Both the position numbers and the translations under genes were made by a program. Shown piece by piece: positions 17,988 to 44,014 of a stretch of 64,000 bases of DNA (its first letter is position 1; every line of letters starts with the position of its first letter). Location of the stretch: NCBI RefSeq assembly GCF_006265115.1, contig NZ_SMDR01000002.1, positions 185,743 through 249,742 on the forward strand, written 5' to 3'. Under the pieces are notes generated by a model. The model did no database searches, was not told where the DNA came from, and worked only from the letters and a program-made list of their open reading frames with translations. This DNA comes from Arenimonas terrae (lineage in GTDB: Bacteria; Pseudomonadota; Gammaproteobacteria; Xanthomonadales; Xanthomonadaceae).

Positions 17988-18001
17988 TTGACGCGGATCA
18001 A
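17988..18001 (+). promoter_or_regulatory. FNR-type box upstream of hemN
   Basis: The sequence TTGACGCGGATCAA matches the FNR/Anr consensus (TTGAT-N4-ATCAA) at nine of ten fixed positions. The centre is 42.5 bp from the hemN ATG. A -10-like TACCCT starts 29.5 bp from the centre (18024-18029). With class II geometry, transcription would begin at about the start codon, implying a leaderless mRNA; no Shine-Dalgarno is seen. Confidence 0.85.
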
Positions 18002-18036
18002 GGCGGGTGGGCCGGGCCCGGCCTACCCTGCCTGCC

Positions 18037-19431
18037 ATGACCGCGATCCCGCCCTTCGACGCCGACCTGCTCCGCCGCTACGACCGGCCGGGGCCGCGCT
18101 ACACGTCCTACCCGACCGCGCCGCAGTTCCACGGCGGCTTCGGCGCCGCCGAGATGGCCCGCGCCGCGCGCCAGAGCAACGACGACCCGATCCCGCGCCG
18201 CCTGTCGCTGTACGCGCACGTGCCGTTCTGCTTCAGCCCCTGCTTCTACTGCGGCTGCAACCGCATCATCACCCGCGACCATTCGCGCGCCGAGGCCTAC
18301 CTCTCGCGCCTGGTGCGCGAGGCGGCGATGCTGGGCCCGCTGTTCGACCGCGACCGCGAGGTTATCCAGATCCACCTGGGCGGCGGCACCCCGAACTTCA
18401 TGACGCCCGGCCAGATCGGCGAACTGCTGGAAAGCCTGGACACGCACTTCCGCTTCAGCCGCTCGCCCGAGCGCGATTTCTCGATCGAGCTCGACCCGCG
18501 TTTCGTCAACCCCGGCGACATCGAGGCCCTGGCCTTCATGGGCTTCAACCGCGCCAGCCTCGGCGTGCAGGACTTCGACCCGGCGGTGCAGAAGGCGGTC
18601 AACCGCATCCAGTCGGTCGAAGAAACCCGCGCCGTCATCGACGCCTGCCGCAAACACGGCTTCCGCTCGGTGAACGTGGACCTGATCTACGGCCTGCCGC
18701 TGCAGAGCCGCGAGGGTTTCGGCCGCACGCTCGACACCGTGATCGAAGCCCGCCCGGACCGCCTCGCGGTGTACAGCTACGCGCACATGCCGCAGCTGTT
18801 CAAGCCGCAGAAGCAGCTCGACGCCAGCCTGCTGCCCGACCCCGAGACCAAGCTGGGTCTGCTGCAGCTGGCGATCGAAAAACTGTCGGTGGCCGGTTAC
18901 CGCTACGTCGGCATGGACCACTTCGCCCTGCCCGAGGACGACCTGTCGCTGGCGCAGGAGCGCGGCGGCCTGCACCGCAACTTCATGGGCTACACCACCC
19001 ACGCCGACAGCGACCTGGTGGGCATGGGCGTGAGCGCGATCAGCCACATCGGCGACACCTACAGCCAGAACCCGCGCGACCTGCCCAGCTGGGAGATCGC
19101 CGTCGACGCCGGCCGCCTGCCCACCTGGCGCGGCATGACCCTGGACGCCGACGACGTGCTGCGCGCCGACCTCATCCAGCAGCTGATGTGCCAGGGCGAG
19201 ATCGACATCGCCGCCCTCGAGGAGCGACACGACGTGGACTTCGACATCTATTTCGCCGCCGACCTGGAGCGGCTGCAGGCGCTGGAGGCCGACGGCCTGG
19301 TCGAACGGCCCGCCGGCCGGATCCGGGCGACCTCGCGCGGACGCCTGCTGCTGCGTATCATCGCTGCATGTTTCGACCGCTACCTGCACCAGCCCAGCGA
19401 GCAGCCCGTGCGCTACTCGAAGTCCATCTGA
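18037..19431 (+). CDS. hemN: Oxygen-independent coproporphyrinogen III oxidase
   Basis: The 464-residue radical SAM enzyme makes protoporphyrinogen IX without O2, replacing HemF under anoxia. It has the N-terminal RYTSYPTAPQF, the cluster motif C65-X3-C69-X2-C72 (FCFSPCFYCGC), GGGTPNFMTP, and the VPQLFK-like segment MPQLFKPQK. The ATG at 18037 matches the family start. It is followed after 19 bp by an FNR-family regulator gene, an arrangement like hemN-anr in pseudomonads. An FNR-type box lies directly upstream. Confidence 0.97.
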   Translation: MTAIPPFDADLLRRYDRPGPRYTSYPTAPQFHGGFGAAEMARAARQSNDDPIPRRLSLYAHVPFCFSPCFYCGCNRIITRDHSRAEAYLSRLVREAAMLGPLFDRDREVIQIHLGGGTPNFMTPGQIGELLESLDTHFRFSRSPERDFSIELDPRFVNPGDIEALAFMGFNRASLGVQDFDPAVQKAVNRIQSVEETRAVIDACRKHGFRSVNVDLIYGLPLQSREGFGRTLDTVIEARPDRLAVYSYAHMPQLFKPQKQLDASLLPDPETKLGLLQLAIEKLSVAGYRYVGMDHFALPEDDLSLAQERGGLHRNFMGYTTHADSDLVGMGVSAISHIGDTYSQNPRDLPSWEIAVDAGRLPTWRGMTLDADDVLRADLIQQLMCQGEIDIAALEERHDVDFDIYFAADLERLQALEADGLVERPAGRIRATSRGRLLLRIIAACFDRYLHQPSEQPVRYSKSI

Positions 19432-19450
19432 CTATCTCCGGGGCGTTCCG

Positions 19451-20200
19451 GTGAGCACTCCGTCGCGCCGGCCCCGGCCCAATCCGATCGCCGACGACGG
19501 CAACGAACTGCGCTTCTGCAGCACCTGCGCCTTCTCCGACGCCTGCCTGTCGCAGGGCTACGACAAGGCGGCGCTGATGGACCTGCATGTGCTGGTCGAG
19601 CACATCGGCCCCTTCCACGAAGGCGAGCACATCTTCCGCGAGGGCGACGAGTTCAACGCCATCGCCGCCGTGCGCGCCGGCACCGTCAAGACCTACGTGC
19701 TCGACGCCAGCGGCCAGGAACAGGTGCTGGGATTCCACCTGCCCGGCGAGATCATCGGCCTCAACGCCATCAGCGAGGCGCGTTATCCCTGCAACGCGGT
19801 GGCGCTGGACACGGTGATGCTGTGCCGGTTCTCGTTCCCGAAGATGGCCCTGCTGGCCACGCGCATGCCGGGCCTGCAGGCGCAACTGTTCCGCCTGCTC
19901 AGCCAGGACATCGGCAAGGCCGCGCTGCTGGCCGGCGACTACAGCGCCGACCAGCGCATGGCGGCCTTCCTGGTGGCGCTGTCGCGGCGGTTCGCCCAGC
20001 GCGGTTTTTCCGCCACGCGCCTGCACCTGACCATGACCCGCACCGACATCGCCAACTACCTGCGCCTGGCGCCGGAAACGGTGAGCCGCGTGCTCAAGCG
20101 GCTACAGGAAGACGGCCTGATCCGGGTCGACCGCCGCGAGCTCGAGATGCTCGACCCCGCCCGCCTGGAAGAGCTGGCCCGGCCGGTCCTGCGTCACTGA
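19451..20200 (+). CDS. FNR/Anr-family oxygen-sensing regulator (copy 1)
   Basis: The 249-residue Crp/FNR protein has all four cysteines expected for an O2-labile [4Fe-4S] cluster: C23, C26, C32 (CSTCAFSDAC) and C125 (MLCRF). The cyclic-nucleotide-like domain includes HEGEHIFREGDEF and GFHLPGEIIGL. The helix-turn-helix has the E-X2-S-R recognition pattern (APETVSRVLKRLQ) that reads TTGA half-sites. The start is a GTG at 19451, 19 bp after hemN, so it is probably cotranscribed with hemN and autoregulated. It is a prime candidate to act on the boxes in 18-42.5 kb. Confidence 0.93.
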   Translation: MSTPSRRPRPNPIADDGNELRFCSTCAFSDACLSQGYDKAALMDLHVLVEHIGPFHEGEHIFREGDEFNAIAAVRAGTVKTYVLDASGQEQVLGFHLPGEIIGLNAISEARYPCNAVALDTVMLCRFSFPKMALLATRMPGLQAQLFRLLSQDIGKAALLAGDYSADQRMAAFLVALSRRFAQRGFSATRLHLTMTRTDIANYLRLAPETVSRVLKRLQEDGLIRVDRRELEMLDPARLEELARPVLRH

Positions 20201-20223
20201 GGCCCCGTCCACCCTGCCCCGAC

Positions 20224-20237
20224 TTGACCTGAATCAG
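20224..20237 (+). promoter_or_regulatory. FNR-type box upstream of norB
   Basis: The sequence is TTGACCTGAATCAG. Its centre lies 61.5 bp before the norB ATG. GAGCAT begins 29.5 bp from the centre (20260-20265), the class II -10 position, giving a leader of about 20 nt that contains an AGGAG ribosome site. Confidence 0.85.
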
Positions 20238-20291
20238 GGTCCGCCGGCGGCGAAGGGCAGAGCATGGCGCCATCCTGACAGGAGAGCCGTC

Positions 20292-22571
20292 ATGAGCAGT
20301 ACCCGCAAACTATGGGCCGGCCTGGCCGCCCTTCTGATCGTCTCGTTCTCCGCCCTGCTATGGGTGGGCAGCGAGATCCACCGCGTCATGCCGCCGATTC
20401 CCGACCAGGTGGTCACCACCTCGGGCGAGGTGGTGTTCACCAAGGACGACATCCAGACCGGTCGCCAGGTCTGGCAGTCGATCGGCGGCCAGCAATTGGG
20501 CTCGATCTGGGGCCACGGCGGCTATGTCGCGCCGGACTGGACCGCCGACTGGCTGCACCGCGAGGCGGTGGACATCCTGGACCGCTGGGCCCGCGAAGAC
20601 TATGCCGTGGCCAACCATGCCGCGCTGGGCAAGCCCGAGCAGGCGCTGCTGGAAGCCCGGCTGCAGGAGCGGCTGCGCACGAACACCTTCGACGCCGAGA
20701 ATGGCGTGATCGTGATCGACGCCGACCGCCTGGCCGCCATCAACAACGTCTCGGCGCACTACCAGAGCCTGTTCAGCAACGACCCGGCCACGCGCGAGCT
20801 GCGCGAGGCCTACGCGATGAAGGAAGCGACGGTGCCCGACGCCGAACACCGGCGCCAGATGACCGCCTTCTACTGGTGGACGGCCTGGACGGCGGTCACC
20901 GAGCGCCCGGGCAAGGACATCACCTACACCAACAACTGGCCGCATGAGCCCCTCGTGGGCAACACGCCGCCGCCGAACCTGCTGGTGTGGACGGTGTTCA
21001 GCGTGCTGTTCCTGATCGCCGGCGTCGCCCTGCTGGGCTGGCATTACGCGGTCAGCCACGACAAGGAGGAGCACCCGGTGCTGCCGGCCAGCGACCCGCT
21101 GGCGAAGATCGTGGTCACCCCGTCCATGAAGGCCACCGCCAAGTACTTCTGGGTGGTGATCGCGCTGTTCCTGACCCAGATCCTGCTCGGCGCGATCACC
21201 GCGCACTATCAGGTCGAAGGCCAGGAGGCCTACGGCTTCGCGCTGTCGGAAATCCTGCCCTATTCGCTCACGCGCACCTGGCACACGCAGCTGGCGGTGC
21301 TGTGGATCGCCACGGCCTGGCTGGGCATGGGCCTGTACATCGGCCCGGCGATCTCCGGGCATGAGCCGAAATACCAGGCCCTGGGCGTCAACGTGCTGTG
21401 GGTCTGCCTGATCATCATCGTGGTCGGTTCCTTCGCGGGCCAGTGGTTCGCGGTGATGCAGAAGCTCGGGCTCGAGCACAACTTCTGGTGGGGCCACCAG
21501 GGCTGGGAATACGTGGACCTGGGCCGGTTCTGGCAGTGGTTCCTGTTCCTGGGCCTGGGCATCTGGCTGACCCTGGTGGGCCGCTGCCTGGTGCCGGCGA
21601 TCAAGGCCGGCGGCGAGTCGAAGTCCATCACCACCCTGCTCTTCCTCTCCACCGTGGCGATCGGCCTGTTCTACGGCGCCGGCCTGCTGTGGGGCGAACA
21701 CACGCACCTGTCGATGGTCGAATACTGGCGCTGGTGGGTGGTGCACCTGTGGGTGGAAGGCTTCTTCGAGGTTTTCGCCACGGCGGTCATCGCCTTCCTG
21801 TTCACCAGGCTGGGCCTGATCAAGATCCGCACCGGCACCCTGGCCACGCTGTTCGCGACCATCGTGTTCATGGCGGGCGGCGTGCTGGGCACCCTGCACC
21901 ACCTGTACTTCACCGGCACGCCGACTGCGGTGATCGCGCTCGGCGCCAGCTTCAGCGCCCTGGAAGTGGTGCCGCTGGCCTATGTCGGCTTCGAGGCCTG
22001 GCACACCTTCAAGCTGGGCAAGGCGACGCCGTGGATGCAGCGCTACAAGTGGCCGATCCTGTTCTTCACCGCGGTTGCGTTCTGGAACCTGGTGGGCGCC
22101 GGCCTGTTCGGCTTCCTGATCAACCCGCCGCTGCCGCTGTACTACATGCAGGGCCTGAACCTGACCCCGCTGCACGGCCACACCGCCCTGTTCGGCGTGT
22201 ACGGCATGCTGGGCATCGGCCTGATGCTGTTCTGCCTGCGGGGCATGAAGCCGCAGGCAATCTGGCCGGAGGCGCCGCTGCGCACCGCCTTCTGGGCGCT
22301 GAACATCGGCCTGGTCGGCATGGCGCTGTTCACCCTGCTGCCGATCGGCATCCTGCAGCTCAACGCCGCCATCGGCGAGGGCTACTGGTACGCCCGCTCG
22401 GCCGAGTTCATGCAGCAGCCGATCATCGACATGCTGGTGTGGATGCGCGTACCCGGCGACACCATCTTCAGCGTCGGCGCCGTGGCCCTGGCCTGGTTCG
22501 TGGCGCGGCTGTGGATCAAGCCGCGCACCGCGCCGGTGAAGGTGGAGGGCGTGACCGAAACCGCCCGCTGA
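20292..22571 (+). CDS. norB: Quinol-dependent nitric oxide reductase (qNor)
   Basis: The 759-residue single-subunit enzyme reduces NO to N2O using quinol. The long N-terminal extension with a periplasmic domain (about 35-215; GRQVWQSIGGQQLGSIWGHG) identifies qNor rather than cNor. The catalytic core shows HLWVEGFFE, TLHHLYFTG and the heme-ligand helix HGHTALFGVYG. About 14 membrane helices are expected. There is no norC. A strong terminator follows. Electrons come from the quinone pool, so it does not need the bc1 complex. Confidence 0.96.
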   Translation: MSSTRKLWAGLAALLIVSFSALLWVGSEIHRVMPPIPDQVVTTSGEVVFTKDDIQTGRQVWQSIGGQQLGSIWGHGGYVAPDWTADWLHREAVDILDRWAREDYAVANHAALGKPEQALLEARLQERLRTNTFDAENGVIVIDADRLAAINNVSAHYQSLFSNDPATRELREAYAMKEATVPDAEHRRQMTAFYWWTAWTAVTERPGKDITYTNNWPHEPLVGNTPPPNLLVWTVFSVLFLIAGVALLGWHYAVSHDKEEHPVLPASDPLAKIVVTPSMKATAKYFWVVIALFLTQILLGAITAHYQVEGQEAYGFALSEILPYSLTRTWHTQLAVLWIATAWLGMGLYIGPAISGHEPKYQALGVNVLWVCLIIIVVGSFAGQWFAVMQKLGLEHNFWWGHQGWEYVDLGRFWQWFLFLGLGIWLTLVGRCLVPAIKAGGESKSITTLLFLSTVAIGLFYGAGLLWGEHTHLSMVEYWRWWVVHLWVEGFFEVFATAVIAFLFTRLGLIKIRTGTLATLFATIVFMAGGVLGTLHHLYFTGTPTAVIALGASFSALEVVPLAYVGFEAWHTFKLGKATPWMQRYKWPILFFTAVAFWNLVGAGLFGFLINPPLPLYYMQGLNLTPLHGHTALFGVYGMLGIGLMLFCLRGMKPQAIWPEAPLRTAFWALNIGLVGMALFTLLPIGILQLNAAIGEGYWYARSAEFMQQPIIDMLVWMRVPGDTIFSVGAVALAWFVARLWIKPRTAPVKVEGVTETAR

Positions 22572-22592
22572 GGGACACTGCGGTCGGTCTTG

Positions 22593-22622
22593 AACGGGGT
22601 CGCCTTGCGGCCCCGTTTTTTT
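22593..22622 (+). terminator. Intrinsic terminator of norB
   Basis: A stem of AACGGGG with CCCCGTT, extended inward by a T-G wobble and CGC/GCG around the loop CTT, is followed by a run of seven T. It begins 21 bp after the norB stop and isolates norB from the downstream nnrS operon. Confidence 0.9.
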
Positions 22623-22647
22623 GCGCGGGCCGCGGGAACGGCCCCGG

Positions 22648-22661
22648 ATGACCTGAATCAA
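22648..22661 (+). promoter_or_regulatory. FNR-type box upstream of nnrS
   Basis: The sequence is ATGACCTGAATCAA; the 3' half is perfect and the 5' half has one mismatch. The centre is 61.5 bp from the nnrS ATG, identical to norB, fabA and ccoN. CACCAT starts 29.5 bp from the centre (22684-22689). Confidence 0.78.
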
Positions 22662-22715
22662 GGCGCCGGCACCGCGGCCAATCCACCATGGACACCAGAA
22701 TCCGTGGAGTCCGCC

Positions 22716-23933
22716 ATGGCCACCGCCGTCCCGCTCGACCGCTCCTTCCCGCTGGCCGCCCTCGCCGCCGCACCGCACCGCCTGCTGTTTTTCATCGGCG
22801 CCGCCAACGTGCTCGCGGCGATGGCCTGGTGGACGGGCTGGCTGGGTGGCCTGCTGCCCGCACCGACGGTGCCGGCCGGCTGGATGCACGGTTTCATCAT
22901 GCAGTACCAGGTGCTGCCGACCTTCATCTTCGGCTTCCTGCTCACGGTGTTCCCGCGCTGGATGGCGCAGACCGAAGCCAGCCGCTGGCACTACCTGCCA
23001 GTGGGCCTGGGCCTGGTCGCGGGCCAGGCGCTGACCCTGGCCGGCCTGCTGTCGGGCTCGGCGGTGCTGCTGCACATCGGCGTGGTCAACACGCTGGCCG
23101 GCTGGATCGCGGCGATGGTCGTGCTGGCGGGCTGGCTGGCGCGCGACCGCAGCGGCAACTGGCATGCGGTCTCGTGTTTCGCGGGGCTGCTGATGGGCCT
23201 GGCCGGCCTGATCGCCTTCGTGATCTACCTGCATCTGCCCACCGAGCCGCGCCTGGCCTTCGCCATGCTGAAGATCGGCACCTTCGGCCTGCTGGTCCCG
23301 GTCTACAGCACGGTCGCCCACCGCATGTTCCCCTTCTTCGCCGGCAACATCGTGCCCGGCTATAAACCGTGGCGTCCGATGTGGCTGCTGGCGGCGTCGT
23401 GGCCGCTGTGGCTGGGCCATGTGGCGCTGGAGCTCGCGCATCTATACCAGTGGCTTTGGCTGGTGGACCTGCCGCTGCTCGGGCTCGGCGTGCTGACGCT
23501 GTGGCGCTGGTGGCCGCGCGGCAAGGCGCCGGCGCTGCTGCGCGTGCTGTTCATCGGCTACGCCTGGCTGCCGGTGGCGCTGGCCCTGTATGCGGCGCAG
23601 AGCCTGTGGTTCCTCGGTACCGGCGAGTTCGCGCTGGGGCGTGGGCCGGTGCACGCGGTGTCGGTCGGCTTCTTCGGCAGCCTGCTGGTGGCGATGGTGA
23701 CGCGTGTCACCCAGGGCCACTCGGGCCGGCCGCTGGTGCTGGGGCGGATCCCGGCGTTGGCCTTCATCGGCATGCAGGTCGTCGCCGTCGTGCGCGTGTT
23801 CTCCGAGCTGTCGCCGAACCCGGCGCCGTGGTTCCTCGCCGCCGGTCTGGCCTGGGTGGCGGTGTTCCTGCCCTGGGTGCTGCGCTCGCTGTGGATCTAC
23901 GCCACGCCGCGCGCCGACGGCCGGCCGGGCTGA
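22716..23933 (+). CDS. nnrS: NnrS-family heme-copper membrane protein
   Basis: The 405-residue polytopic protein (about 12 helices) belongs to the NnrS family, which relieves nitrosative stress and accompanies NO-producing denitrification. Typical segments are HRLLFFIGAANVL, GFIMQYQVLPTFIFGFLL, ARMFPFF-like AHRMFPFFAGNIV, and HAVSVGFFGSLLVAMVTRVTQGH in parts. A GGAG ribosome site precedes ATG 22716. It starts an apparent five-gene operon that ends with ubiD; the next gene follows after 12 bp. Confidence 0.92.
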   Translation: MATAVPLDRSFPLAALAAAPHRLLFFIGAANVLAAMAWWTGWLGGLLPAPTVPAGWMHGFIMQYQVLPTFIFGFLLTVFPRWMAQTEASRWHYLPVGLGLVAGQALTLAGLLSGSAVLLHIGVVNTLAGWIAAMVVLAGWLARDRSGNWHAVSCFAGLLMGLAGLIAFVIYLHLPTEPRLAFAMLKIGTFGLLVPVYSTVAHRMFPFFAGNIVPGYKPWRPMWLLAASWPLWLGHVALELAHLYQWLWLVDLPLLGLGVLTLWRWWPRGKAPALLRVLFIGYAWLPVALALYAAQSLWFLGTGEFALGRGPVHAVSVGFFGSLLVAMVTRVTQGHSGRPLVLGRIPALAFIGMQVVAVVRVFSELSPNPAPWFLAAGLAWVAVFLPWVLRSLWIYATPRADGRPG

Positions 23934-23945
23934 GCGGAGAGCGCG

Positions 23946-26266: not shown

Positions 26267-27345
26267 ATGCCGTCGCGGAAACCGCCGCCGACCGCCGCTG
26301 GCTGCACGGCGCCCTGGCAACGCTGGAACAGGAAGCCGCGCGTTCGGCCGACACCCACCTGCTGCGCGTCGACCTGCCGGCGTTCCCGGGCATCCGCTTC
26401 TACTTCAAGGACGAGGCCTCGCATCCCACGGGCAGCCTCAAGCACCGGCTGGCGCGTTCGCTGTTCCTCTACGCGCTGTGCAATGGCCGCCTGCACGAGG
26501 GCCAGATCGTCATCGATGCGTCCTCGGGCAGTACGGCGATCTCCGAAGCCTGGTTCGCGCGCCTGCTCGGGCTGCGCTTCAAGGCGGTGATGCCGGACTG
26601 CACCGCGCCCGGCAAGATCCGCGCGATCCGCGCGCTCGGCGCCGAATGCGTGCTGGTGCCCTCGGCCATGGACGCCAGCGCGATGGCGCGCGAGCTCGCC
26701 ACCGCCCGCGGCCTGTGCTACCTCGACCAGTTCGGCCTGGCCGAACGCGCCACCGACTGGCGCGGCAACAACAACATCGCCGAATCGATCCTGGCACAGA
26801 TGGCGCGGGAACCGGACCCGGAGCCGGCCTGGATCGTCTGCGGCGCCGGCACCGGCGGCACCTCCGCGACGCTGGGGCGCTACCTGCGCTACCGCCGGCT
26901 CGATTCCCGCGTCTGCGTGGCCGAGCCGACCGGCGGCGCCTTCGCCACCGGCTGGCGCAGCGGCTGCCGCGATGCCGTCGCACTTGCGCCCACGCGGGTC
27001 GAAGGCATCGGCCGGCGGCGCGTGGAGCCGGGTTTCCTTTTCGACGTGGTGGACGACGTCGTCGAAGTGGACGACGCTGATTCGATCGCCGGCGCCTGGG
27101 CCCTGGAAGAGCTGCTCGGCCGGCGCTACGGCGGCAGCTCCGGCACCAACCTCGTGGCTTGCCTCGAGCTGGCCGCACGCCTGCGCGCACAGGGCCGCAC
27201 CGGCAGCATCGTCAGCCTGCTCGGCGACCGCGGCGAACGCTACGCCGAGACGCTGTTCGACCCGGACTGGCTGACGGCCCGCGGCATCTGCCTGGCGCCG
27301 TCTCTGGCGCGGCTGCGTGCGCAGCTGGGCATCGTCGCCCCGTGA
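26263..27345 (+). CDS. PLP-dependent cysteine-synthase-like enzyme
   Basis: The 360-residue fold-type II PLP protein has the lysine loop SHPTGSLKHRLARSLF, the serine/substrate loop DASSGSTAISEAWF, and the phosphate-binding loop GAGTGGTSATLGRY. The canonical TGNTG-like substrate loop of true O-acetylserine sulfhydrylases is SSGSTA here, so it may use another amino-acid substrate. It is coupled on both sides (ATGA with the decarboxylase, GTGA with ubiD). Two adjacent PLP enzymes in a denitrification/ubiquinone operon are unexplained. Confidence 0.8.
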   Translation: MNAVAETAADRRWLHGALATLEQEAARSADTHLLRVDLPAFPGIRFYFKDEASHPTGSLKHRLARSLFLYALCNGRLHEGQIVIDASSGSTAISEAWFARLLGLRFKAVMPDCTAPGKIRAIRALGAECVLVPSAMDASAMARELATARGLCYLDQFGLAERATDWRGNNNIAESILAQMAREPDPEPAWIVCGAGTGGTSATLGRYLRYRRLDSRVCVAEPTGGAFATGWRSGCRDAVALAPTRVEGIGRRRVEPGFLFDVVDDVVEVDDADSIAGAWALEELLGRRYGGSSGTNLVACLELAARLRAQGRTGSIVSLLGDRGERYAETLFDPDWLTARGICLAPSLARLRAQLGIVAP

Positions 27346-28829
27346 GTCACCACGACCTGCGGAGCTTCCTGTCAACGCTGTCGGCGCGCGGCCAGTTGCG
27401 CGAGGTCGGCACGCCGGTGGACCCGGACCTGGAAAGCACCGCGCTGTGCCGCCTGTCGCTGATGCGCGGCGGGCCGGCCCTGCTGATGACGCGCCCGGTG
27501 GGCTCGCGACAGGCCCTGCTCGGCAACCTGTTTGGCCACCGCGACCGCATCGAACTGGCGCTGGGAGGGCGACCGCTGGCCTCGCTGCGTGAGCTGGGCG
27601 AGCTGCTGGCCGCACTGAAGGAACCGCGCTGGCCGGCCAACCTGCGCCAGGCCCTGTCGAGCTGGCCGGAGCTGGCCCAGCTGGCGCACGTGGCGCCGCG
27701 GGTGGTGGCCGACGCCGCCTTCGACGACATCGTGCTCGAAGGCGAGGACATCGACCTGGGCGCCCTGCCGATCCAGCGCTGCTGGCCGGGCGACGTCGCG
27801 CGCCTGGTCACTTTCGGCCTGGTGGTGACGCGCGGCACCCGCCAGCCGCGCCAGAACGTGGCGATCTACCGCCAGCAGCTGATCGGCCGCAACCGCGTGA
27901 TCATGCGCTGGCTGCCGCACCGCGGCGGTGCCCTGGACTTCGCCGACTTCCGGGCCGCCCACCCCGGCAAACCCTTCCCCGTGCTGGTCGCGATCGGCGC
28001 GGATCCGGCGACGATGCTGGCGGCGGTCGCGCCAGTGCCCGACACGCTCTCGGAGTACGAATTCGCAGGCCTGCTGCGCGGCGCACGTACCCGCGTCTGG
28101 CGCAGTGCCCTGACCGACCTGGACGCACCGGCGGGCGCGGAGATCGTGCTGGAGGGTTTCATCCACCCGGACGACACCGCCACCGAAGGCCCGTTCGGCG
28201 ATCACACCGGCTACTACAACGCCCAGGGCGAGTTCCCCGTTTTCACGGTCCAGCGGCTGCGCATGCGCCGCGATGCGATCTATCACGGCAGCTACATGGG
28301 CCGGGCGCCGCAGGACGAGCCCTCGGTGCTGTCGGCCGCACTCAACGACGTGTTCGTGCCGATCCTGCGCAAGGTGTTCCCCGAGATCGTGGACTTCCAT
28401 CTGCCGCCGGAAGCCTGCTCCTACCGCATCGCCGTGGTCAGCATCCGCAAGCAGTACCCGGGGCATGCGCGGCGCATCATGATGGGAATCTGGTCGTACC
28501 TGCGCCAGTTCACCTACACCAAGTTCGTCATCGTCACCGACGAGGACATCGACGTGCGCGACTGGCCGCAGGTGGTCTGGGCGCTGTCCACGCGCGTGGA
28601 CCCCGCGCGTGACAGCCTGCTGGTGGAGAACACGCCGATCGACTACCTCGACTTTTCCAGCCCGGAGCCCAACCTCGGTTCCAAGCTCGGCCTGGACGCG
28701 ACGCACAAGTGGCCGGGCGAAACGCGCCGGCCCTGGAGCGCACCGATCGTGCCCGACCCGGCGGCGGAACGTCAGGCCGAGTCGATCTGGTCGACGCTGC
28801 TGGCGTCGTCGACGAACAGCTCGCCATAA
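27342..28829 (+). CDS. ubiD: UbiD-family decarboxylase (3-octaprenyl-4-hydroxybenzoate carboxy-lyase)
   Basis: The 495-residue protein matches E. coli UbiD along its full length: DLRSFLSTL, RQNVAIYRQQLIGRN, IMRWLPHRGGALDF, PVPDTLSEYEFAGLLRG, EIVLEGFI, the catalytic-glutamate segment EGPFGDHTGYYN, and VENTPIDYLDF. It uses prenylated FMN (from UbiX, not seen here) to decarboxylate the ubiquinone precursor. The start is a GTG overlapping the previous stop. It ends the nnrS operon; its last 58 bp overlap the convergent lipoprotein gene. It may be a second UbiD used under anoxia. Confidence 0.93.
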   Translation: MSHHDLRSFLSTLSARGQLREVGTPVDPDLESTALCRLSLMRGGPALLMTRPVGSRQALLGNLFGHRDRIELALGGRPLASLRELGELLAALKEPRWPANLRQALSSWPELAQLAHVAPRVVADAAFDDIVLEGEDIDLGALPIQRCWPGDVARLVTFGLVVTRGTRQPRQNVAIYRQQLIGRNRVIMRWLPHRGGALDFADFRAAHPGKPFPVLVAIGADPATMLAAVAPVPDTLSEYEFAGLLRGARTRVWRSALTDLDAPAGAEIVLEGFIHPDDTATEGPFGDHTGYYNAQGEFPVFTVQRLRMRRDAIYHGSYMGRAPQDEPSVLSAALNDVFVPILRKVFPEIVDFHLPPEACSYRIAVVSIRKQYPGHARRIMMGIWSYLRQFTYTKFVIVTDEDIDVRDWPQVVWALSTRVDPARDSLLVENTPIDYLDFSSPEPNLGSKLGLDATHKWPGETRRPWSAPIVPDPAAERQAESIWSTLLASSTNSSP

Positions 28830-29395: not shown

Positions 29396-29464
29396 CGGGG
29401 TCTCCTCGACCGGTCCCGGCGGGACCGAATGTCGCCATGCTGGACCCGGCGACGGCGACGGGAA

Positions 29465-29478
29465 CTGATCCAGGTCAA
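29465..29478. promoter_or_regulatory. Shared FNR-type box between His-rich lipoprotein and ubiUV
   Basis: The sequence CTGATCCAGGTCAA (TTGACCTGGATCAG on the minus strand) is centred at 29471.5. CAGCAT occurs 29.5 bp away on both sides: 29501-29506 on the plus strand and 29442-29437 on the minus strand. One dimer site could therefore serve two divergent class II promoters. The centre is 63.5 bp from the ubiU ATG and 76.5 bp from the lipoprotein ATG. Confidence 0.85.
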
Positions 29479-29534
29479 TGTCCGCCCGCTTCGTCGCGTA
29501 CAGCATGGCCACCGGCCCCGACGAGGAGTTCCCG

Positions 29535-30533
29535 ATGCAACTGGTCTGTCCCGCCGGCAATCTGCCGGCCCTGCGCGCGGCCGTGGACGCCGGCGCCGAC
29601 GCCGTCTACGCCGGTTTCCGCGACCAGACCAACGCCCGCGCCTTTCCCGGCCTGAACTTCGACGAAGCCGAACTGCGCGCCGGCATCGCCTACGCCCACG
29701 CGCGCGGCCGCAAGGTCTACCTGGCGCTCAATACCTATCCGGAAACCTCGCGCCTGCGCGCCTGGCAGGCCGCGGTCGACCATGCGGCGGAGCTGGGCTG
29801 CGACGCCATCATCGCCGCCGAGATGGCGGTGCTCGAGCATGCGGCGCGCGAATATCCGGGCATGGCAAGGCATCTGTCGGTGCAGGGTTCGGCCACCACG
29901 GCGCCGGCGCTGCGCTACATGCACGAACGCTTCGGCATCAGCCGGGCGGTTCTGCCGCGGGTACTGTCGCTGCAGCAGGTCGAACGGCTGTGCGAAACCT
30001 CGCCGGTGCCGCTGGAGGTATTCGGCTTCGGCAGCCTGTGCATCATGGTCGAGGGCCGCTGCCAGCTGTCGAGCTACGTCACCGGCGCCTCGCCCAACCG
30101 CCACGGCGTCTGTTCGCCGGCGCGATTCGTGCGCTGGGAGGAACACGGCGACGGCAGCCGCGGCGTGCGTCTGAACGGCCTGCTGATGGACCGCTATTCG
30201 CCCGGCGAACCGGCGGCGTATCCGACCGTGTGCAAGGGGCGCTTCACGGTCGGCGGCGAAACCTTCCATGCGCTCGAGGAGCCCACCAGCCTCAACACCC
30301 TGGAGCTGCTGCCGCGCCTGGCCCGCGCCGGCGTGGCCGCGCTCAAGATCGAAGGGCGGCAGCGCGGCGTCGCCTACGTCACCGCGGTCACCCGGACCTG
30401 GCGCGAAGCGATCGACCGGCATGCCGCCGCGCCCGACGCCTGGGCGCCGCGCGGGGAGTGGCAGGCCGCGTTGTCCGCCCACGCCGAGGGCCACCAGACC
30501 ACCCTCGGCCCCTATCACCGCGCCTGGCACTGA
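29535..30533 (+). CDS. ubiU: UbiU, O2-independent ubiquinone hydroxylation protein
   Basis: The 332-residue protein of the peptidase U32 family forms a heterodimer with UbiV that hydroxylates ubiquinone precursors without O2. The [4Fe-4S] cysteines known from E. coli UbiU are all present at nearly identical positions: C169, C176, C193 and C233. The N-terminus MQLVCPAGNLPALRAAVDAG fits the family, and GAGGAG-like GAGGAG precedes the ATG at 29535. It is followed by ubiV after 4 bp and preceded by an FNR-type box. Confidence 0.95.
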   Translation: MQLVCPAGNLPALRAAVDAGADAVYAGFRDQTNARAFPGLNFDEAELRAGIAYAHARGRKVYLALNTYPETSRLRAWQAAVDHAAELGCDAIIAAEMAVLEHAAREYPGMARHLSVQGSATTAPALRYMHERFGISRAVLPRVLSLQQVERLCETSPVPLEVFGFGSLCIMVEGRCQLSSYVTGASPNRHGVCSPARFVRWEEHGDGSRGVRLNGLLMDRYSPGEPAAYPTVCKGRFTVGGETFHALEEPTSLNTLELLPRLARAGVAALKIEGRQRGVAYVTAVTRTWREAIDRHAAAPDAWAPRGEWQAALSAHAEGHQTTLGPYHRAWH

Positions 30534-30537
30534 CCGA

Positions 30538-31416
30538 ATGAAACTCAGCCTCGGACCCCCGCAATACTTCTGGCCCCGCGAACGCACGCTCGCCTTCTAC
30601 CGCGAGGCTGCCGACTGGCCGGTGGACAGCGTCTACCTGGGCGAAACCGTCTGCAGCAAACGCCGCGAACTCGGCACGCGCGACTGGATTTCGCTGGCCT
30701 TCGAACTCGCGTCCACCGGCAAGGAGATCGTGCTCTCGAGCCTGGCCCTGGTCGAGGCCGAATCCGAACTCAACGCGCTCAACCGCATGCTCGACCACGG
30801 CGGCTTCCTGATCGAGGCCAACGACCTGACCGCGGTGCAGCTGTGCCGGGAACGGCGCCTGCCCTTCGTCGCAGGGCCGAGCCTGAACCTCTACAACCAC
30901 CGTGCCCTGGCCATGCTGATGGACGACGGCCTGCGCCGCTGGGTTCCGGGCGTCGAGCAGGGACAGGCGCTGATCGCCGAGCTGCTCGACGCGCGGCGCG
31001 CCGAAGGCGGCGCGATACCCGAGCTCGAGGTGATCGCCTGGGGCCGCCTGCCGCTGGCCTACTCGGCGCGCTGCTTCACCGCCCGCGCACTCGACGTCGC
31101 CAAGGACGCCTGCGGCTTCCGCTGCATCGAACATCCGGACGGCCTGCCGCTGGCGACGCGTGAGGGCGAGCCCTTCCTGCGCATCAACGGCATCCAGGTC
31201 CAGGGCGAGGAAGTGACCGACCTGGGACCGGAACTGCCGGCGCTGCGCGCGCTGGGCGTCGACCTGCTGCGCCTGTATCCGCAGGCCGAGGGCATGCGCG
31301 AGGTCGTCGAGCATTTCGACCTCGCCCGCCGCTCGCCCCAGCCGCCACCGCGCCGCGGTGCCGTGAACGGCTACTGGCACGGCCAGCCGGGAAAGCCGGG
31401 ACTGCCGCCCGGCTGA
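30538..31416 (+). CDS. ubiV: UbiV, O2-independent ubiquinone hydroxylation protein
   Basis: The 292-residue U32-family protein is the partner of UbiU. It has the cluster cysteines C39 (GETVCSKRRE), C179, C192 and C196 (RCFTARALDVAKDACGFRC region), which match E. coli C39, C180, C193 and C197. The start is 4 bp after the ubiU stop, so the two form one operon. It converges on fabB with 4 bp between stops. UbiT, the third member of the pathway, is encoded about 5 kb away on the other strand. Confidence 0.95.
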   Translation: MKLSLGPPQYFWPRERTLAFYREAADWPVDSVYLGETVCSKRRELGTRDWISLAFELASTGKEIVLSSLALVEAESELNALNRMLDHGGFLIEANDLTAVQLCRERRLPFVAGPSLNLYNHRALAMLMDDGLRRWVPGVEQGQALIAELLDARRAEGGAIPELEVIAWGRLPLAYSARCFTARALDVAKDACGFRCIEHPDGLPLATREGEPFLRINGIQVQGEEVTDLGPELPALRALGVDLLRLYPQAEGMREVVEHFDLARRSPQPPPRRGAVNGYWHGQPGKPGLPPG

Positions 31417-31420
31417 TCGC

Positions 31421-32632
31421 TCACCTATTCCGCTGGAACACCAGCGTCGCGTTGGTGCCGCCGAAGCCGAAGCTGTTGGACATCACGGTGTCGAGTTTCG
31501 CCGCGCGGCTTTCGCGCACGATCGGGAAGCCCTCGGCCTGCGGATCGAGCGTTTCGATATTGGCCGAGCCGGCGATGAAACCGTCGCGCATCATCAGCAG
31601 GCAGTAGATCGCCTCGTGCACGCTGGCAGCGCCCAGCGAATGACCCGACAGCGCCTTGGTCGAGGACAGCGGCGGCACCGCGTCGCCGAAGGCCTCGCGG
31701 ATCGCGCGCAGTTCGACCAGGTCGCCCAGCGGCGTCGAGGTGCCGTGGGTGTTGAGGTAATCCACCGGCGCATCCACGCCTTCGAGCGCCATGCGCATGC
31801 AGCGCACCGCGCCTTCGCCCGACGGCGCGACCATGTCGGCGCCGTCCGAGCTGATGCCGTAACCGGCCAGCAGGGCGTGGATGCGCGCGCCGCGCGCGAT
31901 CGCGTGATCGTAATCCTCGAGCACCAGCATGCCGGCGCCGCCGGCGATGACGAAACCATCGCGATTCGCGTCGTAGGGACGCGAGGCGCGCGCGGGGTGA
32001 TCGTTGTGGCGGGTGGACAGCGCACCCATCGCGTCGAACTGCAGGCTCAGGGTCCAGTGCAGCTCCTCGCCGCCGCCGGCGAAGACGATGTCCTGGCGGC
32101 CGGCCAGGATCATGTCGGCGGCGGCGCCGATGCAGTGCGCCGAGCTGGCGCAGGCCGCGCCGATCGAATACGTCGCGCCCTGCACGCCGAAGGCGGTGGC
32201 CAGGTTGGCCGACACCGTCGAACACATCGTACGCGGCACCATGTAAGGGCCCACCTTGCGCACGCCGCGCTCGCGCAACAGGTCGGCGGCCTCCACCTGC
32301 CACTGCGCCGAACCGCCGCCGGAGCCGGCGATCAGGCCGGTGCGCGGGCTGCGCACCGCGGTTTCGTCCAGGCCCGCGTCGGCGATCGCCGACTGCATGG
32401 CGATGTGGGCATAGGCCGCGGCCTCGCCCATGAAGCGCAGCTGCTTGCGGTCGATGCGCGCGGCCAGGTCGATCTCCGGCGCGCCGCCGACCGTGCTGCG
32501 CAGGCCGCGTTCGGCGGCCTCGGGCAGCTGGCGGATGCCGGCCCGGCCTTCGCGCAGCGCCGAAGAAACCACATCGAGTTCATTGCCCAGGCACGAGACG
32601 ATGCCCATGCCGGTGATCGCGACACGCCGCAT
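31421..32632 (-). CDS. fabB: 3-oxoacyl-ACP synthase I (FabB)
   Basis: The 403-residue condensing enzyme elongates cis-unsaturated acyl-ACPs in the O2-independent pathway. The catalytic triad is visible: cysteine in [14 protein letters not shown], histidine in [11 protein letters not shown], and histidine in [13 protein letters not shown]. It begins [13 protein letters not shown], matching FabB; a GTG at 32638 overlapping the fabA stop is an alternative start. Its gene follows fabA by 2 bp, forming a fabAB operon downstream of an FNR-type box. Confidence 0.94.
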
Positions 32633-32634
32633 CG

Positions 32635-33156
32635 TCACAGGTCCTTGGTGGAAGTGAACAGGCCGACGCGCAGCTCGTCGGCGGTGTAGATCTCGCGGCC
32701 GTCCACGAGCGTGCGGCCGTCGGCGATCACCATCTTCAGGCGACCGCGCACGACGCGGCGGATGTCGATCTCGTAGGTGACGAGCTTGGCCGTCGGCAGC
32801 ACCTGGCCGGTGAACTTCACCGCGCCCACGCCGAGCGCGCGGCCGCGGCCGGGCTCGCCCAGCCAGGGCAGGAAGAAGCCGGCGAGCTGCCACATCGCGT
32901 CGAGGCCCAGGCAGCCGGGCATCACCGGGTCGTCGGTGAAGTGGCACTGGAAGAACCAGAGCTCCGGGCGGATGTCGAGTTCGGCGCGGATGAAACCTTT
33001 GCCGTGCCGGCCCCCGTCCTCGCGGATCTCGGTGATGCGGTCGAACATCAGCATCGGGTCCGACGGCAGGCGTGCGCCGTCGGCGCCGAACATCGCACCG
33101 CTGGCGCATTCGAGCAGCTGACTTCGATCGAAGGAATGGGGAAGCGGAAGGTTCAT
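32635..33156 (-). CDS. fabA: 3-hydroxydecanoyl-ACP dehydratase/isomerase (FabA)
   Basis: The 173-residue hot-dog enzyme makes trans-2 and cis-3 decenoyl-ACP, introducing the double bond without O2. The active-site histidine and aspartate lie in [17 protein letters not shown]. Length and C-terminus ([10 protein letters not shown]) are typical. A strong GAAGGAG ribosome site precedes ATG 33156. The FNR-type box is 61.5 bp upstream, the same distance as for norB, nnrS and ccoN, which suggests that unsaturated fatty acid synthesis is raised under low O2. Confidence 0.95.
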
Positions 33157-33210
33157 GGCGCGCTCCTTCAAGGGAAAGCGCGATTCTTTCATCCCCACGC
33201 ACCCTCGTGG

Positions 33211-33224
33211 CTGACTCGCGTCAA
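33211..33224 (-). promoter_or_regulatory. FNR-type box upstream of fabAB
   Basis: On the minus strand the sequence is TTGACGCGAGTCAG. It overlaps the nadB stop codon (the TGA lies inside it). The centre is 61.5 bp from the fabA ATG, and AAGAAT starts 29.5 bp from the centre (33188-33183), fitting a class II promoter. It is one of the weaker matches because the second half is GTCAG. Confidence 0.75.
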
Positions 33225-34708
33225 TTATTTTCGCCGTACGCAGGCGTAGCGATTCGCTGGTGTATGGAAGAATCCGGCGACACGTCAACGCGATGGTGGG
33301 CACCGAGGCTTTCGCGCCGTGCGATCGCAGACAGGAGGAGCTGGCGCGCCAGTCCGGCCTGCCAGCTCTCGCTGAGTCCGGCGTGGGCGTCGATGCGCGC
33401 GAGCGCGTGACGCATCGTCGCTTCATCCCGGACCGGGCCCAGCCCTTGCCACAGCCATTCACGCAGCTGCAGCAGTGCGGGCTCGGCAGCCGCAGGCGCC
33501 AGGACGACCGATTGCGCAGCGACGTTTGTGCGCGGCGATACGCCGGGTTTCCGAAGCCATTCGCCGAGCCGGCGCCCGAACACCACGCCCTCGAGCAGCG
33601 AATTGCTCGCCAGCCGGTTGGCGCCGTGCACGCCGCTGCAGGACACCTCGCCGACGGCATGCAGCCCCGGCAGGCGGCTGCGTCCGCGCGCATCCACCGC
33701 GATGCCGCCCATGTGGAAATGCGCCGCCGGTGTCACCGGGATCGGCTGCACGCGCGGGTCGATACCGTGCGCGAGGCAGAGCGAACGCACGGTCGGAAAC
33801 TGCCGCCATGCCGACGCGTCCAGCGCCGTGGCGTCGAGCCAGGCCTCGCCGCCGGAGCGCAGCTCGCTCCAGATGCGGCGCGCAACCCGGTCGCGCGGCG
33901 CCAGGTCGGCCAGCGGATGCACCCCGGCCATCAGCGCCCGGCCCTGCGCGTCCCGAAGCACCGCGCCGGCGCCGCGCAGCGCCTCGGTCACCAGCGGCAG
34001 CGGACGCAGGCCGGGCACCGCCAGAGCCGTCGGGTGGAACTGGACGAACTCCAGATCGCGCGCCGCCGCACCGGCGGCCAGGGCGATCGCGAGGCCGGCG
34101 CCGTCCGCGCCCGGTGGATTGGTAGTGGCGGCGAAGAGCGCACCGATGCCGCCGGTGGCCAGCACCACGTCGGGCGTTTCGATCTGCACTTCGCCGCGGC
34201 CTGTCGTCCGTGCCAGGCCGACGCCGGCGATGCGTCCGTCCTGCAGCCGCAGCGATCGCAGGGTCCAGCCTTCGCGCCGCTCGATGTGGGGTGCCGTCGC
34301 GACCGCGCCGGACAGCGCCGCCAGCAGCTCGCGGCCGCTGGCGTCACCACCCGCATGCACGATGCGGGCCCGCTGGTGCCCGCCCTCGCGGCCCAGCTGC
34401 CAGCCGGACCCCTCTCGGTCGAAAGGCACGCCGCGGGCGGCCAGCCAGCGGATCGCCTCCGGCGCACCGTTGACCAGCCGGGACACGAGCGCTGCATCGT
34501 TGTGCGCGGCGCCCGCGGCCAGCGTGTCGGCGGCGTGTTGATCCGGATCGTCGTCCGGCGCCAGCGCGGCGGCGATGCCGCCCTGCGCCAGCGCCGTCGC
34601 GCCGTCGCCCGCCGCGCGGCTGAACAGCAGGACGCGCCGCGGCGCCGCCGCCAGCGCGACACTCAGTCCGGCGACACCGGCACCGACCACCACCAGCGGC
34701 GCCGGCAC
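33221..34708 (-). CDS. nadB: L-aspartate oxidase
   Basis: The 495-residue flavoprotein oxidises aspartate to iminoaspartate, the substrate of NadA; the family can use fumarate instead of O2. It has the FAD motif [12 protein letters not shown], the [12 protein letters not shown] segment, [10 protein letters not shown], and [14 protein letters not shown] with [19 protein letters not shown]. The GTG at 34708 ([11 protein letters not shown]) is chosen, 5 bp after the nadA stop. It is the last gene of the ubiT-nadA-nadB group. Confidence 0.94.
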
Positions 34709-34713
34709 CTCGC

Positions 34714-35727
34714 TCAGACCCGCTCGCCGCGGCCCACCGCGAGCATGCGCTCGAGTGCACGCCGCGCCCGCGCCGCCACGTCCAACGGCACAAGCACCTC
34801 CGGACCCATGCCGAGCAGGCAGGCGTGGATGTTCTGGAGGGTGATGCGCTTCATGTGCGGACAGAGGTTGCAGGGCTTGATGAACTCGGTCTGCGGGAAG
34901 CTCAGGCGCAGGTTGTCGGCCATCGAACATTCGGTGATCAGGGCGACCCGCTCGGGCCTCTCGCGCTCGAGCCAGCGCGCCATCGCGCTGGTGGAGCCGA
35001 TGAAGTCGGCCTCGGCCAGGACCTCCGGCGGGCATTCGGGATGTGCGACCAGGCGTGCGTCGAAACGCTCGCGGGCATGCCGCGCCTGGGCGGCGGTGAA
35101 GGTCTCGTGCACTTCGCAGCGGCCGTCCCACAGCACGAGCTCGACCGCGGTCTGGCTGGCGACATGGGCACCCAGGTACCTGTCGGGCAGGAAGATGACC
35201 TTGTCCGCACCCATCGCCTCGACCACCTGCACGGCATTGGCCGATGTGCAGCAGGCGTCCGACTCGGCTTTCACTTCGGCCGTGGTGTTGACGTAGCTCA
35301 CCACCGGCACGCCCGGATGCCGCGCGCGCAGGGCGCGCACATCCGCGGCGGTGATCGAATCGGCCAGCGAACAGCCCGCGGCCGGGTCCGGGATCAGCAC
35401 TTTCACGTGCGGCGCGAGGATCTTCGCCGTCTCGGCCATGAAGTGCACGCCGCACAGCACGACCACCTCGGCCTGGCAGCGCGCCGCCGCCTGCGCCAGC
35501 GCCAGCGAGTCGCCGGTGATGTCGGCGACGCCGTGGAAGATCTCCGGCGACTGGTAGCTGTGCGCCATCACCACCGCGCCGCGTTCGCGCTTGAGTTCGC
35601 GGATCGCGTCGATCCACGGCAGGTGCATCGGCACTTCCAGGCAGGGCAACAGCTGCTCGAGCCGCTCCGCCAGGCCGGCGTACTGCTGCTCGAGCTCGGG
35701 GCGCCAGCGCGGCGCGGTCGTGCTCAT
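34714..35727 (-). CDS. nadA: Quinolinate synthase
   Basis: The 337-residue [4Fe-4S] enzyme condenses iminoaspartate with dihydroxyacetone phosphate. The three cluster cysteines correspond to C119 (AAGCSLAD), the cysteine in LWDGRCEVHE, and the one in CNLCPHMKRIT. MAHSYQSPEI and GSTSAMARWL are further hallmarks. The start overlaps the UbiT stop as ATGA, so it is translated with UbiT. The cluster is oxygen sensitive, which fits an anaerobic setting. Confidence 0.96.
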   Translation of the reverse strand: MSTTAPRWRPELEQQYAGLAERLEQLLPCLEVPMHLPWIDAIRELKRERGAVVMAHSYQSPEIFHGVADITGDSLALAQAAARCQAEVVVLCGVHFMAETAKILAPHVKVLIPDPAAGCSLADSITAADVRALRARHPGVPVVSYVNTTAEVKAESDACCTSANAVQVVEAMGADKVIFLPDRYLGAHVASQTAVELVLWDGRCEVHETFTAAQARHARERFDARLVAHPECPPEVLAEADFIGSTSAMARWLERERPERVALITECSMADNLRLSFPQTEFIKPCNLCPHMKRITLQNIHACLLGMGPEVLVPLDVAARARRALERMLAVGRGERV

Positions 35728-36245
35728 GCTTCGCCCCGGTGCGCGCGGCGGGCGGCGCGGGCGGCGCGGGCGCCGCGGTTGAGCAGGATGCGGACGGCCA
35801 GCGGGACCTCTTCCCAGGGCAGGCGGTCGAGCAGGTTGCGCGCGGTCAGGCCCAGTTCGGTGTCGCCGGTCAGTTCGAGGCGACGCTGGAAGAACAGGGT
35901 GTCGGCGTCCTCAAGCCGGCTGGCCAGCAGCAGCAGATCGGTGGCACTGCCGCGCACTGTCGCCTCCGCCGGCGCGTCGGTGGCGCGCAGGCGGCTTCCG
36001 TCCAGCACCAGCACCCAGCACAGGCCCAGGTCCGGCACCTCGATGCCGAGCCGCCGGCCCTGCATGAAATCCAGCTGTCCCGCGCCCAGCGGCTGCGCCA
36101 GCAGCCGGGCAACCGCGGCTTCAAGCACGCGCGCCTGCCATGACGGCGGCAGTCGCCGCAGCAGCGCCGCCCAGCGGGCCGGCGGCGGGAATCCGCGCAG
36201 CAGTCGGCGCGTCAGCAAGGAATGGTCGGAAGCGGAAGGCGTCAT
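35724..36245 (-). CDS. ubiT: UbiT from internal start (alternative product)
   Basis: An in-frame ATG at 36245 would give a free UbiT of 173 residues, the normal length of E. coli UbiT (YhbT). The FNR-type box at 36285-36298 is centred 46.5 bp upstream, so a class II transcript would begin about 5 nt before this ATG and be almost leaderless; no Shine-Dalgarno is visible. The product is the SCP2-fold accessory factor of UbiU/UbiV. This is an alternative reading of the same DNA as the fusion entry. Confidence 0.65.
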   Translation of the reverse strand: MTPSASDHSLLTRRLLRGFPPPARWAALLRRLPPSWQARVLEAAVARLLAQPLGAGQLDFMQGRRLGIEVPDLGLCWVLVLDGSRLRATDAPAEATVRGSATDLLLLASRLEDADTLFFQRRLELTGDTELGLTARNLLDRLPWEEVPLAVRILLNRGARAARAARRAHRGEA

Positions 36246-36593
36246 GGCGGGCGACAGACTGCCCGGGGCGACGGGGGGGGCGCCTTGACCCGGATCAGGT
36301 GCGAGCCCCTGCTGGCGGCAGGCATCGTCGATCACCAGTGCGAGCTGCCTTCGAGCCAACTCCGACGGCAGCCCGAGCCGCCGGGCCAGGCCCTTGCCGC
36401 GCGCGAAGATGCGCGCTTCGCGGCCGGCATCGCGCACCGGCAGCCCTTGCCGCTGCTTTACGGCGGCGGCGGCGGCCACGAGCTGGCGTCGCCCGGCCAG
36501 GAGCAGCAGCAGGGCGTCGTCGAGTCCGTCGATACCGCGGCGCAACGGTGCCAGCATCAGGAAAGCAGGAAGCAGCGGGGCGGTACGGACCAT
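35724..36593 (-). CDS. Chorismate mutase (AroQ) - UbiT (SCP2) fusion
   Basis: One open frame of 289 residues joins two domains. Residues about 14-97 are an AroQ chorismate mutase with all E. coli active-site equivalents: R18, R35, K46, D55, R58, E59 and a terminal Gln (RQQG). Residues about 117-289 are an SCP2-like UbiT (LDFMQGRRLGIEV, DADTLFFQRRLELTGDTELGL), the lipid carrier needed for O2-independent ubiquinone synthesis. The linker between them (about 98-116) contains an FNR-type box in its DNA. GGAG precedes ATG 36593. It lies 24 bp after the preceding membrane-protein gene. Whether the fusion or separate UbiT is made, or both, is open. Confidence 0.8.
   Translation of the reverse strand: MVRTAPLLPAFLMLAPLRRGIDGLDDALLLLLAGRRQLVAAAAAVKQRQGLPVRDAGREARIFARGKGLARRLGLPSELARRQLALVIDDACRQQGLAPDPGQGAPPVAPGSLSPAMTPSASDHSLLTRRLLRGFPPPARWAALLRRLPPSWQARVLEAAVARLLAQPLGAGQLDFMQGRRLGIEVPDLGLCWVLVLDGSRLRATDAPAEATVRGSATDLLLLASRLEDADTLFFQRRLELTGDTELGLTARNLLDRLPWEEVPLAVRILLNRGARAARAARRAHRGEA
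36285..36298 (-). promoter_or_regulatory. Intragenic FNR-type box before ubiT
   Basis: The plus-strand text is TTGACCCGGATCAG (CTGATCCGGGTCAA on the coding minus strand). It lies inside the chorismate mutase-UbiT open frame. Centre to internal ATG is 46.5 bp. The hexamer at the expected position (36262-36257) is GCAGTC, or CAGTCT one base on; this is a weak -10, so the promoter is less certain than the others. Confidence 0.7.
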
Positions 36594-36603
36594 GGGTATC
36601 TCC

Positions 36604-36623
36604 AAAAAAACCGCTGGTCAGCG
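36604..36623 (-). terminator. Weak terminator-like hairpin before chorismate mutase-UbiT
   Basis: On the minus strand a short CGCT-GACC-AGCG hairpin overlaps the stop of the membrane-protein gene and is followed by G and seven T. The stem has only four base pairs, so it would be leaky at best. If active it would separate the upstream genes from ubiT-nadA-nadB and give purpose to the internal FNR-type box. Confidence 0.3.
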
Positions 36624-44004: not shown

Positions 44005-44014
44005 GGACCCCGAC

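Follow-up and report, generated by a model that had tools for sequence, protein, structure and literature searches.

The UbiUVT pathway of Escherichia coli and Pseudomonas aeruginosa is among the closest described counterparts of the locus analyzed here, which lies in a 64,000-nucleotide stretch of Arenimonas terrae (contig NZ_SMDR01000002.1, forward strand, positions 185,743 to 249,742; this whole stretch is the window referred to below, and coordinates count from its first letter). As in that pathway, UbiU, UbiV and UbiT score above curated cut-offs and are encoded in one locus with FNR-type boxes. The A. terrae locus differs in that its UbiT carries an N-terminal chorismate mutase (CM) domain and in that nadAB and fabAB lie downstream of ubiT in the same orientation. 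A union of UbiT with a partner from the same route is described for Zymomonas mobilis, although in the passages of PMC6747719 on that protein the partner is the hydroxylase subunit UbiU, whereas here it is the enzyme expected to make prephenate. AroQ domains are likewise joined to a second domain in PheA, TyrA and DAHP synthase; in the A. terrae protein, however, the mutase is joined not to an enzyme of aromatic amino acid synthesis but to an SCP2-type accessory factor for quinone synthesis.

Prephenate is the reported oxygen donor in O2-independent ubiquinone synthesis (passages of PMC11574389, citing PNAS 2024), and in 2023 its role as the UbiUV donor was described as under study (a section of PMC10470549). 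TrhP, which also belongs to the U32 proteins, requires prephenate, and its product returns when a CM-only PheA is present, as stated in parts of PMC6599085. Because prephenate is the reported donor, its supply to UbiU and UbiV is the most likely function of the fusion, and the sequence evidence set out below makes a role for CM-UbiT as their dedicated donor source probable. In the mechanism we propose, the N-terminal AroQ mutase would convert chorismate to prephenate, the C-terminal UbiT SCP2 domain would serve O2-independent ubiquinone synthesis, and UbiU and UbiV would hydroxylate the ubiquinone ring without O2, taking the oxygen atom from this prephenate. The fusion would supply the donor locally, where and when UbiU and UbiV need it, and independently of PheA.

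The gene that the first-pass annotation had called ubiT begins with an AroQ chorismate mutase domain that was missed there:

35724..36593, minus strand: CM-UbiT fusion protein, 289 aa, ATG at 36591-36593
36303..36554, minus strand: AroQ chorismate mutase domain, residues 14-97 (PF01817, 55.2 bits, cut-off 27)
35811..36161, minus strand: UbiT SCP2 domain (NF047962, 129.6 bits, cut-off 46.9)

Both domains lie in one frame and above curated cut-offs; the ATG is preceded by ggag, and the stop overlaps the nadA ATG. Among solved structures, 1ECM, the E. coli chorismate mutase, is the top sequence match to the first 112 residues (E 2.2e-6). We built an AlphaFold model of CM-UbiT on 43 fusions, which has a mean predicted local distance difference test (pLDDT) score of 87.2 and presents three mutase helices (residues 10-49, 56-73 and 77-94), a low-confidence linker and then an SCP2 fold. 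The modelled CM part superimposes on 1ECM at 1.0 Å over 83 columns (TMt 0.83-0.87) with modest Foldseek E values (0.0016-0.0023, rank 22 and 27), and the C-terminal part fits UbiJ-SCP2 with a Foldseek E of 7.6e-6. On this model, the N-terminal part has the three-helix AroQ fold.

We surveyed conservation in the neighborhoods of the best 80 of 151 UbiU relatives, among which a Lysobacterales range (L002-L066 and L069) was chosen by name, identity and tree; several of its members are poorly named metagenome assemblies. CM and UbiT share one open frame in 42 of the 48 UbiT-bearing loci of this range, which rules out an accident of frame as the source of the fusion. Arenimonas daejeonensis (L002), where the two domains lie in two overlapping frames, is outside the 42; its record also has norB, nadB, nadA and nnrS2 in pieces, which looks like sequencing errors. 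Two further loci of the set stand out. A Lysobacterales-type locus with the fusion occurs in a metagenome assembly labelled Ideonella (L054), by transfer or mis-binning, and the Dyella jiangningensis SBZ 3-12 chromosome has the locus twice in the same layout (L042 and L043), as a duplication or an assembly artefact.

Forty-three fusions were aligned (the window's, those of 40 UbiU-relative loci, L103 and L219, excluding identical copies, the frameshifted L037 and the window's own copy L083). Only eight CM columns are invariant, namely R18, D22, D25, R35, K46, R58, E59 and Q95. In the alignment with 1ECM, six of them (R18, R35, K46, R58, E59 and Q95) correspond to R11, R28, K39, R51, E52 and Q88 of the E. 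coli mutase, which we take to be its catalytic set. As judged from these sequences that set is intact in the fusions, and the domain would be catalytically active. These columns bear on whether the CM domain might instead be a dimerization or scaffold module for UbiT with no catalytic role. AroQ mutases form intertwined dimers, and the Q88 equivalent has been lost from the separate CMs beside ubiT that are described below, both of which would suit a scaffold; the presence of the catalytic positions, Q88 included, among the sole invariant CM columns of the fusions speaks against one, and we consider it very improbable.

The linker between the two domains holds a putative regulatory site. We searched the 64 kb window for the FNR-type consensus TTGATNNNNATCAA with at most two mismatches, using 100 shuffles as the control, and found 16 boxes, some of them inside genes, versus a shuffle mean of 3.35 (sd 1.82, largest 10). 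One of these lies within the fusion gene:

36285..36298: FNR-type box in the coding sequence of the CM-UbiT linker; an in-frame ATG (36243-36245) follows 46 bp further on

A box between CM and UbiT is present in 16 of the 43 fusions, versus 0.64 in codon shuffles, and 12 of the 16 share one offset. Among the loci of the range that have no CM, L058, L061 and L062 (L062 being almost identical to L061) carry an FNR-type box 101-131 bp before the UbiT domain and L048 a box with three mismatches at 91 bp; none was found before the UbiT domain of L038. We infer that the joining of an upstream CM gene to ubiT turned the older promoter of ubiT into the linker. A box is present in the 260 bp preceding the CM domain in 19 of 48 cases (15 of 43 fused, four of five separate), with 1.5 expected for all 48. 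A more elaborate arrangement can be suggested tentatively, in which CM-UbiT works in a complex with UbiU and UbiV, its SCP2 domain displaying the lipid intermediate while the tethered mutase releases prephenate beside the hydroxylases, so that the donor is channelled; in some lineages the FNR-type promoter in the linker would yield UbiT alone and let cells adjust the proportion of UbiT that makes the donor.

Outside the Lysobacterales, mutases also stand beside ubiT as separate genes. The class sample comprised 369 genomes (UbiT-profile match in 225, above cut-off in 99; the 90 strongest places besides the window's taken) and the phylum sample 398 (158 matched at 1e-18; 80 places taken). Of the 90 class neighborhoods, two have the fusion, both in the window's family, and five have a separate CM; one of the 80 phylum neighborhoods has the fusion, again in the window's family. 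Together with 13 named UbiU-relative loci, these places gave a set of 180 UbiT-profile loci outside the Lysobacterales, covering 2.31 Mb. A ubiU or ubiV gene is present in 121 of the 180 stretches (13/13 named, 69/88 class, 39/79 phylum), and some of the loci with neither may be scattered or not true UbiT. A separate CM lies beside ubiT in five of the 180 (five of the 121 with ubiU or ubiV alongside), with gaps between the domains of 341 bp in L109, 166 bp in L135, 274 bp in L146, 217 bp in L172 and 262 bp in L187, and no further CM occurs anywhere in the 180 stretches. The probability that all five would fall within 1 kb of UbiT by chance is ~2e-4, and similar for the 121, with kinship ignored.

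In L135, L146, L172 and L187, CM and ubiT are divergent with an FNR-type box between them, whereas in L109, from another family, ubiT, CM, fabA and fabB run together. Positions 4787-14489 of L109 also hold ubiU, ubiV, ubiD, nadA, nadB and a gene resembling fnr, which makes this package almost that of the window. In L172 (3799-6495) the separate CM is followed by norB on the same strand, divergent from ubiT. Near UbiT, fabA is found in five of the 180 loci, three of them CM-linked; fabA-fabB adjoin ubiT with no mutase in two distant lineages (L143, 4518-6224; L175, 5039-6749).

That fusion and linkage are both to UbiT also bears on whether the CM feeds other anoxic users of prephenate in RNA modification, such as TrhP, RlhA and CmoA, or diverts chorismate from UbiC as a flux valve. 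TrhP, RlhA and CmoA are prephenate-dependent in E. coli (parts of PMC6599085) and UbiC consumes chorismate (a section of PMC10470549). The partner found here is nevertheless UbiT, the genes for TrhP, RlhA, CmoA and UbiC not having been looked for, and of the explanations considered we rate this one lowest.

The trees describe how the linkage is distributed and bear on whether the UbiT-linked mutases go back to a single origin. In a CM tree of 84 columns, in which long branches meet, the fused CMs group together and the separate CMs stand apart from them. A UbiU+UbiV tree with 49 linked tips (L002 set among them), 117 unlinked tips and 18 tips of unknown state requires, by parsimony, nine changes of the linked state. 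With a midpoint root, L135, L109 and L172 lie apart on this tree, and L146 and L187 are perhaps neighbors, with poor support; L172 groups with L178 and the Lysobacterales at a support of 0.999.

Several observations weigh against CM-UbiT as a dedicated donor source. Five UbiT loci of the Lysobacterales range (L038, L048, L058, L061 and L062) have no CM, and 175 of the 180 other UbiT loci have no linked CM, which suggests that in most lineages the normal CM complement is enough. The five separate CMs keep the equivalents of R11, R28, K39, R51 and E52; the Q88 equivalent is absent in all five and that of D48 in four, and these proteins may be weak or partner-dependent. In the window itself, the 260 bp preceding the CM domain contain no FNR-type box (the best candidate has five mismatches), the nearest one upstream being that at 38126, and the box in the linker points to possible production of UbiT without the CM as well. 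Finally, among 24 distinct genomes with a linked CM (A. terrae included, the duplicate row G758 excluded), no other CM_2 gene was found in five (G181, G234, G751, G756 and G757), where the sole linked CM may serve phenylalanine and tyrosine synthesis as well; assembly gaps or other mutase types could account for this lack.

These five genomes would fit a fused mutase that is a phenylalanine and tyrosine enzyme escaping PheA feedback in anoxia, with the tie to UbiT only securing co-expression and with UbiU and UbiV using a common prephenate pool. Prephenate can diffuse, and E. coli PheA or TyrA meet the need of TrhP, according to parts of PMC6599085. However, a second CM_2 gene occurs in the other 19 of the 24 genomes, usually in a frame of PheA size, and five relatives without a UbiT match (G274, G651, G742, G563 and G746) manage without an extra CM, each having one, in a PheA-sized frame. 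The linkage in several families is, moreover, to ubiT and not to aromatic amino acid genes, which were not searched for in the stretches, and we regard this explanation as unlikely. Four genomes with UbiT and no linked CM (G007, G202, G090 and G116) have one CM each, as does G747, which carries L048; G748 and G749, with L061 and L062, have three each, and G367 has three, one of them in a 531-aa frame. Supply of prephenate to UbiU and UbiV by CM-UbiT is the reading that we prefer.

The fusion gene is part of a larger locus, in which the following genes flank it:

18037..19431, plus strand: hemN (TIGR00538, 551 bits; start assumed)
19451..20200, plus strand: FNR-family regulator gene (profile match; N-terminal Cys at 23, 26 and 32)
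20292..22571, plus strand: norB (profile search)
22716..23933, plus strand: nnrS (profile search; start assumed)
27345..28829, plus strand: ubiD (TIGR00148, 463 bits; start approximate)
29535..30533, plus strand: ubiU, U32 family (NF047963, 524 bits, 440 needed; start assumed)
30538..31416, plus strand: ubiV, U32 family (NF047965, 349 bits, 275 needed; start assumed)
31421..32632, minus strand: fabB (profile search; start approximate)
32635..33144, minus strand: fabA (profile search; start approximate)
33221..34702, minus strand: nadB (profile search; start approximate)
34714..35727, minus strand: nadA (profile search)
36618..37868, minus strand: nnrS2, membrane protein upstream of CM-ubiT (named by look only; no profile match)
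39591..41114, plus strand: nirK (TIGR02376, 373 bits; start assumed)
42559..44620, plus strand: ccoN and ccoO (profile search)

The first-pass annotation had drawn an island of O2-independent biosynthesis from 17988 to 36593, and profile searches bear out its gene list, with hemN, fnr, norB, nnrS, ubiD, ubiU, ubiV, fabB, fabA, nadB, nadA and ubiT in 18037-36593. The nirK and ccoN/ccoO genes that it counted as members are present nearby but outside these limits (from 39591 and from 42559), as is CcoG, found by profile search in the region from 42559 on. On the plus strand the order is hemN, the FNR-family gene, norB, nnrS, a SirB-like gene (profile search), two pyridoxal phosphate enzymes that had been overlooked, ubiD, ubiU and ubiV. 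The two overlooked genes, at 24359-27345, encode a tyrosine-decarboxylase-like enzyme and a Cds1-like cysteine desulfhydrase; they recur in many Lysobacterales loci, and neither is an obvious O2-independent biosynthesis gene. In the gap between ubiD and ubiU, a minus-strand frame at about 28772-29397 contains a run of near-identical 9-base repeats and gave no match in an NCBIfam profile search. The cysteines of UbiU (170, 177, 194 and 234) and UbiV (39, 179, 192 and 196) may occupy the positions of the E. coli cluster cysteines. They did not match the CX6CX15CX3C pattern given in the 2024 review.

Besides the linker box, FNR-type boxes precede the main units:

17988: before hemN
20224: before norB
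22648: before nnrS
29465..29478: before ubiU
38126..38139: before the DUF2249-nnrS2-CM-ubiT-nadA-nadB-fabA-fabB unit
42491: before ccoN

A box had been claimed before every operon, which holds for these units; the best candidate near nirK (39556) is a poorly formed box, and the scan of the window found none upstream of the tyrosine-decarboxylase-like gene. The distance from box center to assumed start codon is 61.5 bp for norB, nnrS and ccoN and 63.5 bp for ubiU. The regulator encoded in the locus scores 203 bits with the Fnr model, below the 228-bit cut-off of that model. From the boxes, the low-oxygen locus of the window is probably under FNR control, and FNR would bind at these sites.

The island had also been viewed as a portable package of pathways that have O2-dependent counterparts in aerobes. 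Elsewhere the genome encodes such counterparts for heme and ubiquinone synthesis; for NAD and fatty acids it does so at least in part. There is a hemF (387 bits), two Ubi hydroxylases score above cut-off and are adjacent on C1, tryptophan dioxygenase and 3-hydroxyanthranilate dioxygenase were found (the two enzymes of the kynurenine route to quinolinate that were covered), and four genes above cut-off belong to the fatty acid desaturase family, an assignment of family and not of substrate. The idea of duplicates does not extend to ubiD, fabA and nadA, for which the genome holds no further copy above cut-off; fabA has one extra weak match of 36 bits, perhaps FabZ. As sole copies, these three genes may also serve growth with O2. 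With a single ubiD, UbiD as an anaerobic duplicate is ruled out; in E. coli it serves both ubiquinone routes, according to passages of PMC6747719.

Portability was rejected on synteny, composition and flank. The locus recurs across the Lysobacterales in the gene-order survey, its base composition does not stand out from its surroundings, and it is bordered upstream by ybeY and corA, both typical chromosomal genes. A tRNA gene search of the window found none, and there is no mobility gene among the identified genes of the window, not every open reading frame having been searched. Among the best 80 of 151 relatives, UbiU identity is highest in Arenimonas, to which the closest relatives mostly belong (91-93%). 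Module content varies, with nadA in at least 32 and fabA in at least 29 of 52 Lysobacterales UbiT loci, some stretches being short. The cluster is a low-oxygen locus shared by the Lysobacterales. As to the claim that its full combination was undescribed, a narrow literature search on ubiT with nadA and fabA found no paper.

We found no printed mention of a CM-UbiT fusion in the titles, abstract openings and some passages covered, which did not include the key PNAS 2024 paper. The term "chorismate mutase" is absent from the main texts of PMC6747719, PMC11707229 and PMC13386864, and searches combining UbiT, UbiU and chorismate mutase, or aimed at a chorismate mutase-SCP2 fusion, found no paper. 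Direct evidence that U32 enzymes catalyze the prephenate-donor reaction was still missing according to passages of a 2024 review (PMC11574389), and a 2024 survey states that the role of UbiT is not fully understood (PMC11707229). The fusion, together with the linkage in other families, offers independent genomic support for prephenate-donor chemistry. CM-UbiT could also serve directly as a construct with which to reconstitute the reaction, and it gives a clue to what UbiT does.

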